A stretch of 32,333 bases of DNA, from the IMG/VR virus record IMGVR_UViG_3300042868_002498, positions 1 through 32,333 of that record. One strand, given 5' to 3'. This DNA comes from a virus. The notes beneath the pieces are model-generated. The model did no database searches and was not told the origin of the DNA. It worked only from the letters and a program-made list of their open reading frames with translations. A program made the translations under genes and the position numbers. Below, in pieces: positions 1,929-4,192 of the stretch. Each line of letters begins with the position of its first letter. Position 1 is the first letter of the stretch.

Positions 1929-2026
1929 TTTCTGTGTTACCTGCGATAGTGCAGTGAAGATAGTGTAATCTAGAATTAAACGATACAACAGTCCCTTGCA
2001 AATATTTTTTAGGTGCTTACCCTAAT
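1929..2026 (-). promoter_or_regulatory. Regulatory module copy 1 (promoter, leader and palindrome)
   Basis: The interval 1951-2026 matches 5590-5665 without gaps at 54 of 76 positions by my hand alignment. A further conserved block (TTTCTGTGTTACCTG, 1929-1943) matches 14 of 15 bases at 5556-5570. On the minus strand the shared core reads CGTTTAATT, then TTACACTATC, then AACACAGAAA just before the gene. TACACT or TATCTT could be a -10 box; the -35 is unclear. A palindrome TTAGG-N7-CCTAA (2009-2025) overlaps the stop codon of the methyltransferase gene. Confidence 0.6.
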
Positions 2027-4192
2027 GTTTTCTTGGATGCGTCTGCCGATCCAGGCCACCACAGGAACCGCCCAAGAGTTGCCCAGAGCCTTGTAGCGGG
2101 GGCCGTCTGGGGTTGCTTTGCCCTTGAGCTTGATGTCTGTGTACCCGTCTGGAAAGCCCTGTAAGCGCTCACACTCGACAGGCGTGAGGCGGCGCACGGC
2201 CATGTTAGGCTGCATGACGCCATCGTGCCTGCCACCAGCGCCGCCTCGCTGGAGGGTGCCAGCCAAATCAATACTGGCAGTCAATTCCTCCGACCATCCA
2301 ATTGGCTGCGCCGCAAACAGGCTGCCATTGGTGGCACTGGCATTGCCGTTCCACTTAGTCCCGTAAGCTGCCGTCAGACAGTCGGCAGTCTGCTGGAAAG
2401 CAATTGGCTGCATCACCGCTGTGCCGCCTTGATGCATGGATGGGTTACTACCAGATGCATCAATGGTTTTTGAAATATTGGCATCTGTGACATGGATGTC
2501 ATCTTTTAATTTCCCTTTGCCCGGTGCGATGTTATAAGCCATAGCCTGCATCACTGCTGTGCCGCCCTGCGCACAGGTCGGGTTCAGCCCTGTGGCGGCG
2601 TCCAGCGTCTTGCTTGTATCTTCACCCATGCGAACATAAAACCCACCTTCAGGTCGATCTTGGCGCTTGTTGCCGCCGTAGATGTTTAATGGCTGCGCCA
2701 CCGGCAAAACATGCCCTGCATCCACCGCTTGATTGCAAGCGAAGTTGCCAGCATCGTGGCCGTTGGGGCCAGTGTTGCAGGCAAGAGCGCCAACAACGTG
2801 CGCGACCATCACCGTTGCGCAACCGCCAGCCGACCCAGTGCCCATCGCGTGTGTGCTGCCATCCTCGCTGTTGATCGGGTCTTGCGTGGGGTGGAAAGCA
2901 ATTGGCTGGGCCACCGCATGGCTATGACCCTTGGTCAAAGTGAAACTAGGGTCGCCGGGTTGACCAAAGCCCAGACCGCCAGACGAGTGCCCCGGTGTCA
3001 TGTTCATTGTGTCAATCGGAATTGCTTGTGCCACCCCCTGAGTTGCGTGAGTGTCGACCGTGTATGCCGTGCCATCGTCGTTCCAGCCGCGTCCGTTTTG
3101 TGCCTTCTCGCGGGGTGTAACGTCTTGTAGGGCAATAGGCACCAATGTAGTGTCTTCAGTTGGACATTGGGTTGATGATCTGCTTGCCGTGAGAGAGTGG
3201 GCAATTACAGGCGTCTGTCCCTCATCTACAGTGCTGTTGATGCCCTTGTGCATCCGGGCTGTTAGGCAGTTGGCGACTGGGTAGGGCTGGGCAAGTAACG
3301 TGTCGGCTTTGGTGATGCTGTCCTGCGCTCTCAAAGTTGCTGCTTTGTCTCCTGCATCAAGCCAGTACCCGTGACCGCTACTGATTGCAGCGTTTATGAT
3401 TGGAACAACCTGTGAATCGTAATTGCCGTTGTGCCCTATTCCTCGTCCTGGCACTCCTTTGTCAAGTGTTCCTGCGACATCGTACTCACTGATCGCAGCG
3501 CTTTCTCCAGTTGTGGGGGCAACTGCTTTCCCCGTTTCTCTGCTCGGCGCAGTATCCCGGCGCACGCCACCCCACTCAAAAAGTACCTTTGCGGGATCGA
3601 AGTCTGCTCTAGCACTTGCGACAACGAACACACGGCGGCGTCGTTGGGCCACTCCGAAATATTGGGCATCCAAGACGCGCCAAGCTGCACTTCTCTGGGG
3701 TCCATCAACGCAACCCGCATTCGGCCAGCCGTCGGGCGCATTAAGTGGCTCATCACCCCCGACGAGCGCTGCGAGAAAGCATCCGAAGGCGTTGTCGGTT
3801 GTGCTGAGGACTCCTGGGACGTTTTCCCAGAATACGATGGAGGCGGGCAATCCGCGAACAAGTCGAGTGTCATCGATTGCATTTGCTATCTCGCAAAAAG
3901 TGAGGGAAAGATTGCCCCTAGCATCGCCCAAGGACTTGCGAAGGCCAGCGACTGAGAAGGCTTGGCACGGTGTCCCGCCACAAAACAGATCTGGGGCTTC
4001 CACCTCGCCTGACAGGATGCGCTCAGGCAGTGTGGTCATGTCGCCCAGGTTGGGCACGTCCGGGTAGTGGTGCTTGAGCACCGCCGACGGGAATGGCTCA
4101 ATCTCAGACAGCCATGCCGCCCTCCAGCCAAGCGGCTCCCAGGCAACTGATGCCGCCTCAATGCCAGAGCAGACAGACCCAAATTTAAGCAT
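2009..4192 (-). CDS. DNA (cytosine-5) methyltransferase with giant target-recognition region
   Basis: The enzyme transfers a methyl group from SAM to cytosine C5, probably shielding phage DNA from host restriction. The start at 4192 has GGAGAAAAAAG upstream; a frame open to 4228 is less likely. Motif I is FGSVCSGIE (residues 4-12). The catalytic PCQ is at 75-77 inside GGTPCQAFSVAG. ENV is at 123-125, QRRRR at 183-187, and motifs IX/X (RRLTPVECERLQGFPDGY, YKALGNSWAVPV) occupy about 665-727. At 727 aa it is far longer than typical 330-450 aa enzymes. The extra length is a roughly 465-residue region (200-665) of repeated modules ending in words such as VAQPIAF, VMQPIAF and VMQAMAYNI. No restriction endonuclease is next to it. 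A second frame within it is also open (3436-3882). Confidence 0.95.
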   Translation of the reverse strand: MLKFGSVCSGIEAASVAWEPLGWRAAWLSEIEPFPSAVLKHHYPDVPNLGDMTTLPERILSGEVEAPDLFCGGTPCQAFSVAGLRKSLGDARGNLSLTFCEIANAIDDTRLVRGLPASIVFWENVPGVLSTTDNAFGCFLAALVGGDEPLNAPDGWPNAGCVDGPQRSAAWRVLDAQYFGVAQRRRRVFVVASARADFDPAKVLFEWGGVRRDTAPSRETGKAVAPTTGESAAISEYDVAGTLDKGVPGRGIGHNGNYDSQVVPIINAAISSGHGYWLDAGDKAATLRAQDSITKADTLLAQPYPVANCLTARMHKGINSTVDEGQTPVIAHSLTASRSSTQCPTEDTTLVPIALQDVTPREKAQNGRGWNDDGTAYTVDTHATQGVAQAIPIDTMNMTPGHSSGGLGFGQPGDPSFTLTKGHSHAVAQPIAFHPTQDPINSEDGSTHAMGTGSAGGCATVMVAHVVGALACNTGPNGHDAGNFACNQAVDAGHVLPVAQPLNIYGGNKRQDRPEGGFYVRMGEDTSKTLDAATGLNPTCAQGGTAVMQAMAYNIAPGKGKLKDDIHVTDANISKTIDASGSNPSMHQGGTAVMQPIAFQQTADCLTAAYGTKWNGNASATNGSLFAAQPIGWSEELTASIDLAGTLQRGGAGGRHDGVMQPNMAVRRLTPVECERLQGFPDGYTDIKLKGKATPDGPRYKALGNSWAVPVVAWIGRRIQENIRVST
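3436..3882 (-). CDS. Candidate overprinted gene inside the methyltransferase gene (148 aa)
   Basis: This frame is shifted by one base relative to the methyltransferase and stays open for 148 codons, from ATG at 3882 to TAG at 3436. An in-frame TAG lies two codons before the ATG, so it must initiate on its own. The product contains LFADCPPPSYSGKTS, MPNISEWPNDAAVCSL, then QRYFLSGVACAGILRRAEK and RGKQLPPQLEKAL. I recall a conserved phage hypothetical family with the same order of words (YSGKTSPES, then FLSxxACxGILRRAEKRGKxLP). Caution: the first two words are out-of-frame images of methyltransferase motifs VI (ENVPGV) and VIII (QRRRRVFVV). The LRRAEKRGK part lies where the methyltransferase enters its variable region. 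The ribosome-binding site is weak (GAGA). Confidence 0.4.
   Translation of the reverse strand: MQSMTLDLFADCPPPSYSGKTSQESSAQPTTPSDAFSQRSSGVMSHLMRPTAGRMRVALMDPREVQLGASWMPNISEWPNDAAVCSLSQVLEQTSIPQRYFLSGVACAGILRRAEKRGKQLPPQLEKALRSVSTMSQEHLTKECQDEE

Follow-up and report, generated by a model that had tools for sequence, protein, structure and literature searches.

Does the long open reading frame nested in a second frame of a phage methyltransferase gene encode a protein and, if so, what might this protein do? The window that we analyzed, a viral stretch of 32,333 nt (IMG/VR record IMGVR_UViG_3300042868_002498), also carries helicase, tail and lysis-type genes. The product of the large gene matches PF00145 (E = 2.4e-33) and phrog_116 (E = 3.9e-87) and scores above the cut-off of TIGR00675; the PF00145 match and the presence of motifs I-X identify it as a C5-cytosine enzyme. 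Motifs I-VIII lie upstream and motifs IX-X at the far end, all in one frame, and an equivalent of the motif IX-X tail was seen in 78/92 and 51/57 relatives. The small nested frame, hereafter OP, spans motifs VI to VIII in the +1 frame. It begins at an ATG (3882), two codons after an in-frame stop, and ends at a TAG (3436), as originally predicted.

2009..4192, minus strand: C5-cytosine DNA methyltransferase (MTase, alpha frame), 727 aa, from the ATG at 4192 to the end at 2009
3436..3882, minus strand: ORF nested within the MTase gene in its +1 frame (OP, putative beta-like subunit), 148 codons and a TAG stop
2033..2212, minus strand: alpha-frame segment with MTase motifs IX and X, RRLTPVECERLQGFPD...RYKALGNSWAVPVV

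Between OP and motif IX lies a very long variable region (about 2212-3484, minus strand), which presents many repeated segments of the type TLxAxxxxGxxG.

One explanation for OP is that there is no gene and that the frame is merely an automatic image of conserved MTase motifs. The words that OP spells over motifs VI and VIII are indeed largely automatic, as the original prediction had pointed out. Because part of the OP sequence is dictated by the MTase motifs, we tested OP against the expectation imposed by the MTase frame. Relatives were fetched using only MTase residues 1-101, upstream of OP, as the query, which yielded 66 complete loci. The OP frame was open over residues 104-225 in all 66, whereas the other same-strand frame was open in none of them, with 3 to 9 stops each. 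The matching test in phages of Firmicutes gave 76/77 open frames for OP and 0/77 for the other same-strand frame. When synonymous MTase codons were shuffled within each gene, OP stayed open in approximately 8% of cases, such that 7.8 open frames were expected where 92/92 were observed, and 4.5 where 57/57 were observed. Finally, the equivalent frame was open in 0/28 ordinary bacterial C5-MTases. Homologues with stop codons in this frame, which would have spoken against the prediction, are therefore absent or rare, also when all 326 loci examined are considered. The motif FLSxxACxGILRRAEKRGKxLP, named in the original prediction, proved to be real and near-invariant. That prediction was also right in that its LRRAEKRGK...LP part is the informative one: there, amino acid identity reaches 0.89 in the OP frame vs 0.68 in the MTase frame. 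The OP frame is thus conserved where the MTase frame is not, and we consider the automatic-image explanation to be refuted.

Two long antisense ORFs on the plus strand (window positions 3423-4067 and 3431-3955) overlie the OP region. Of the 66 relatives, 45 keep one antisense frame open, which is probably a by-product of double coding.

An overlapping gene is expected to reduce synonymous change in its host frame within the overlap only. We estimated the ratio of observed to expected synonymous change in the MTase frame, with the upstream portion of each gene as the reference. Across 92 sequences, this rate was approximately 1.0 up to the start of OP, dropped at the ATG, lay at 0.5-0.78 across the N-terminal half of OP and reached 0.15-0.21 over its C-terminal domain, before returning to 0.95 past the OP stop and 1.00 in the motif IX-X tail. 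The C-terminal domain is the most constrained part of the product:

3484..3633, minus strand: OP residues 84-133, predicted three-helix domain, SLSQVLE..IPQRYFLS..ACAGILRRAEKRGKQLPPQLEKAL

The Firmicutes-phage clade (57 sequences) presented rates of 0.12-0.16 over the C-terminal domain and 1.05 in the tail. In a third clade, which includes the pneumococcal Streptococcus phage MM1 (8 sequences), the rate was 0.65 inside the overlap vs 1.00 outside, and returned to approximately 1 past the stop. The expectation for an overlapping gene is therefore met. Excess constraint had been predicted for this interval; it is limited to it and is strongest in positions 3436-3600.

Low synonymous change alone is no proof of coding, and constraint could instead act on the nucleic acid, as an RNA structure or a DNA element. 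Several observations have largely refuted this possibility. In the C-terminal domain, variation is greatest at the third positions of OP codons, i.e., the three-base periodicity switches to the OP frame. Amino acid identity over this domain is also higher in the OP frame (0.89-0.96) than in the MTase frame (0.68-0.69). Together, periodicity and identity indicate that selection acts on the protein encoded by the OP frame. Moreover, the boundaries are conserved, a peptide motif recurs at different offsets near the N-terminus (see below) and the same peptide domain is found in phages of different phyla. Both the frame and its start are conserved beyond what the MTase frame imposes. The open frame, the synonymous constraint and the OP-frame periodicity all support the original reading that both frames are under selection. 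As judged from sequence comparison, the frame, start and amino acid sequence of OP are under purifying selection in at least three MTase clades. On this sequence evidence, and without any expression data, it is close to certain that OP is a real overlapping gene.

Is this gene translated from its own start codon? Two signals bear on this question:

3880..3882, minus strand: conserved OP ATG, formed by the end of an AAT codon and the following G
3889..3892, minus strand: Shine-Dalgarno-like GAGA, 6 nt 5' of the ATG, weak in this window

The ATG is kept in 66/66 relatives. Its A and T are the second and third bases of an MTase codon for Asn or Asp, and its G is the base that follows. This Asn/Asp codon is AAT or GAT in 66/66 relatives and never NAC, while the adjacent codons vary. 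Relatives present a Shine-Dalgarno-like GAG or AGG before the ATG. In phages of Firmicutes the signal is a strong GAGGTG, stronger than in the synonymous redraw in 57/57 cases. In the proteobacterial clade, to which the window belongs, it is weak yet above the redraw (p = 2e-11, uncorrected for relatedness). The choice of NAT codons and the strength of the Shine-Dalgarno signal argue for independent initiation of OP, although they do not exclude programmed frameshifting. A programmed +1 ribosomal frameshift would yield a truncated MTase fused to the C-terminal domain, with no start codon for OP. Such an event would fit the position of the most constrained domain behind motif VIII, and in one contig (L609) both frames are fused by an indel. 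We nevertheless regard frameshifting as improbable: constraint starts at the conserved ATG, the codon choice and the Shine-Dalgarno strength are themselves under selection, and selection in the OP frame acts on an N-terminal motif beside the ATG.

The L609 fusion, in which the MTase frame runs straight into the OP C-terminal domain through an indel between motifs VI and VIII, is a mutation or an assembly error.

We then consider where OP occurs. Searching with OP by tblastn returned 155 phage records, 532 plasmid records (mostly P1-like) and approximately 450 IMG/VR stretches, and OP lay in the same register inside an MTase gene in all 326 loci examined. A DNA pattern built on the C-terminal domain only, and blind to the MTase, identified 80 loci: in 78 the domain followed motif VIII in the +1 register, and the remaining two were at contig ends, where the gene is only partly visible. 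The original prediction had proposed a search for homologues encoded without a methyltransferase, and none was found in the 326 loci, the 80 pattern loci or the phage tblastn lists. More generally, protein searches in phages, plasmids, IMG/VR and genomes and the C-terminal domain DNA pattern did not reveal any standalone OP. Among the loci searched, OP thus appears, on sequence evidence, to occur only inside C5-MTase genes. When viral C5-MTases were sampled by motif IV alone, the C-terminal domain was present in the +1 frame in 44/80 among the matches listed, a fraction that is only indicative. It was rarer in bacterial genomes (5/299 in a phylum sample and 16/199 in a genus sample).

One annotated protein, gp104 of phage Thibault (81 aa), was considered as a standalone OP and rejected, since it is actually the C-terminal domain of an MTase interrupted by an HNH insertion. 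In Thibault (locus L087, 2345-3177) and in Bombitas (L425), an insertion with HNH genes lies right after motif VIII and splits both the MTase and the OP frame; the OP C-terminal domain survives with a new ATG, giving gp104 in Thibault. No Rfam intron match was found at the Thibault insertion. In two IMG/VR loci (L053, 1679-4373, and L077, 1568-5207), the MTase is interrupted by an intein-like insertion directly in front of its catalytic cysteine, with junctions GGTP/CFTAGH...VVHN/CQAFSV (slashes mark the junctions) and OP intact downstream. Finally, in Escherichia phage 813R1 (L427, 2498-3007), only the nested ORF is annotated (WMM35488.1, hypothetical protein), and the upstream frame of this P1-like dmt looks disrupted.

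What the product might do is suggested by its C-terminal domain. AlphaFold models the N-terminal half of OP as unstructured and places helices at residues 87-93, 104-117 and 123-143. The model is confident for the C-terminal domain only (pLDDT 92-95 over residues 101-130), and a model of OP from a Firmicutes phage shows the same helices with lower confidence. The domain consensus, SLSxILE..VPEKYYLSxKACxGILRRA, is similar to the stretch that ordinary C5-MTases have after motif VIII in the MTase frame, e.g., KLGSILEPHVDEKYTLTPKLW. Pairwise profile comparisons between the two gave modest support (E = 2.5e-4 and 4.4e-5; probabilities of 43 and 69). In ordinary C5-MTases this element is in frame, whereas it is missing in frame from OP-bearing MTases. 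Among the matches listed from the 80 sampled viral MTases, 0/44 OP-bearing enzymes had the ordinary element in frame and 19 others had the element in frame without OP. The +1 OP domain and the in-frame element are therefore mutually exclusive. Common descent of the two, as opposed to convergence, is not proven because the SLSxILE part overlaps motif VIII itself. Foldseek searches with the OP models yielded no significant match in the PDB or in a viral library, where the two best hits (not significant) were Thibault gp104 and a cytosine methyltransferase. Sequence searches with OP gave no match in the PDB and no meaningful match in Pfam or NCBIfam.

The N-terminus of OP carries a second feature. 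The published consensus of the beta-clamp binding motif is Q-phi-x-[LM]-[FL] (PMC11139829), and OP presents a degenerate form of it:

3856..3870, minus strand: OP residues 5-9, TLDLF, a degenerate clamp-type motif without Gln

The N-termini of many related OPs carry complete forms (QLDLF, QLTMF and QMSLF) at several offsets. These were found in 13/33 and 9/39 non-redundant N-termini vs 0.25 and 0.09 in synonymous redraws. In the third clade, 7/8 proteins present Q[ML]xLF, as QMTLF, QMSLF, QMNLF or QLSLF. Neither the Firmicutes clade nor the P1-type phages have the motif. The N-terminus that bears it is modeled with low confidence by AlphaFold and is predicted to be disordered.

These features leave room for a different role: OP might be a phage effector in its own right that has no part in methylation, for instance a clamp binder acting on host replication. 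A clamp-type motif in a predicted disordered N-terminus would suit such a protein, and the DNA overlap by itself would force its co-inheritance with the MTase. We find this role unlikely, although it cannot be dismissed, since no search returned a standalone copy, the C-terminal domain resembles an MTase element with which it is mutually exclusive, and two clades keep this domain without the clamp-type motif.

One of the closest known systems is found in the third clade of MTases, which has a long +1 ORF, in most members with the C-terminal domain and clamp-type features. In MM1 itself (DQ113772), orf13 and orf14 are annotated as "C5 methyltransferase alpha subunit" and "beta subunit," with beta nested in alpha. 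Like OP, MM1 beta is a short protein (141 aa) whose ORF lies inside a C5-MTase gene in the +1 frame; it has a C-terminal SLSDILEEEVDERYFLS element, and its overlap shows synonymous constraint. Its N-terminal QMTLF is of the type seen in many OP relatives, while the window has TLDLF, without Gln. The profile of the OP C-terminal domain matches MM1 beta with 25.6 bits, and the C-terminal element SLSxILE..V..(K/R)YFLS is present in OP. In contrast to OP, MM1 beta lacks the GILRRA..RGK..LP extension, and MM1 alpha belongs to another C5-MTase clade. The name of the beta subunit is an annotation only, for which we have seen no functional proof. Two further phage entries overlap with our results. Phage P1 Dmt, a bifunctional methyltransferase, also harbors the OP frame, with 52% identity across residues 18-133 and a GGAG in front of the ATG; this frame is unannotated in P1. 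Dmt differs in being annotated as methylating adenine too. PHROG 16143, a 139-position phage family labelled DNA methyltransferase, was matched by 56/113 nested products, and its label does not mention a nested frame.

Nested genes whose products act together are known from phage lambda, where Rz and Rz1 lie one within the other in shifted frames; these are lysis proteins without sequence relation to OP or the MTase. In the M.EcoHK31I system, too, the small gene is embedded in the large gene and read in a different frame. Both M.AquI and M.EcoHK31I are known two-polypeptide C5-MTases (PMC3404938). M.EcoHK31I (YGGCCR) pairs a large polypeptide with a small one, and both are required according to the title of a 1995 report cited in PMC3404938, and its small subunit carries motif IX (PMC3404938). 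In our window, motif IX (RRLTPVECERLQGFPD) is in the MTase frame and OP lacks it; the locus therefore does not belong to the exact M.EcoHK31I type. M.AquI is made of two chains split in the variable region, one with motifs I-VIII and the other with motifs IX-X (PMC3404938). Like the proposed OP pair, it is a natural assembly of a C5-MTase from two chains. These chains are, however, successive parts of the enzyme, whereas the large frame of the window already holds motifs I-X and OP is read from the same DNA in another frame.

Our preferred reading is that OP is a genuine overlapping gene with its own ATG and that its product most likely serves the MTase as a small accessory subunit of the beta type; we assign this reading a probability of roughly 60%. 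The subunit role is inferred, without expression, peptide or interaction data, and we hold it with only modest confidence; that the MTase would form a complex with it is likewise an inference. OP would be translated from its own ATG inside the phage C5-MTase gene, and the two products may then form a complex in which the OP C-terminal domain docks on the MTase in trans, as in natural two-polypeptide C5-MTases. Where a QLxLF-type motif is present, OP might also tether the MTase to the host beta sliding clamp, an inference that is weaker still, and we propose that newly replicated phage DNA would be methylated as a result. Without binding data, clamp tethering is a tentative lead. It is similarly speculative that these nested genes encode adaptors whose N-terminus binds the clamp while the C-terminal domain replaces in trans the missing element after motif VIII. 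Since the window MTase has all of motifs I-X in a single frame, it is not obviously incomplete without a partner. The clamp role is weakened by the degenerate TLDLF of the window and by the absence of the motif in two clades.

We did not find any report of this overlap in phage methyltransferases in the open-licence literature. Nested beta subunits have been proposed before, as the MM1 annotation shows, and the OP arrangement is widespread and mostly unannotated. What appears to be new, relative to the open literature, is the breadth of the distribution, the evidence for constraint, the presence of the frame in P1 dmt, the clamp-type motif and the way in which OP and the in-frame element exclude each other.

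These results imply that the MTases of hundreds of phages, including P1 and P1-like plasmids, contain a nested gene that is unannotated save for isolated cases such as MM1. If OP is required, tests of phage C5-MTases that were cloned as one frame may have lacked control over a partner encoded by the same DNA, and deletions of dmt-like genes removed two genes together. The locus also represents a case of long-lived dual coding across phyla, in which two proteins are selected and the balance shifts between frames along the gene. Finally, the clamp-type motif offers a direct way to test whether phage DNA modification is linked to replication. If the adaptor reading is true, phage DNA methylation would be coupled to the replication fork by one doubly coded gene, as a bacterial counterpart of the DNMT1-PCNA link.
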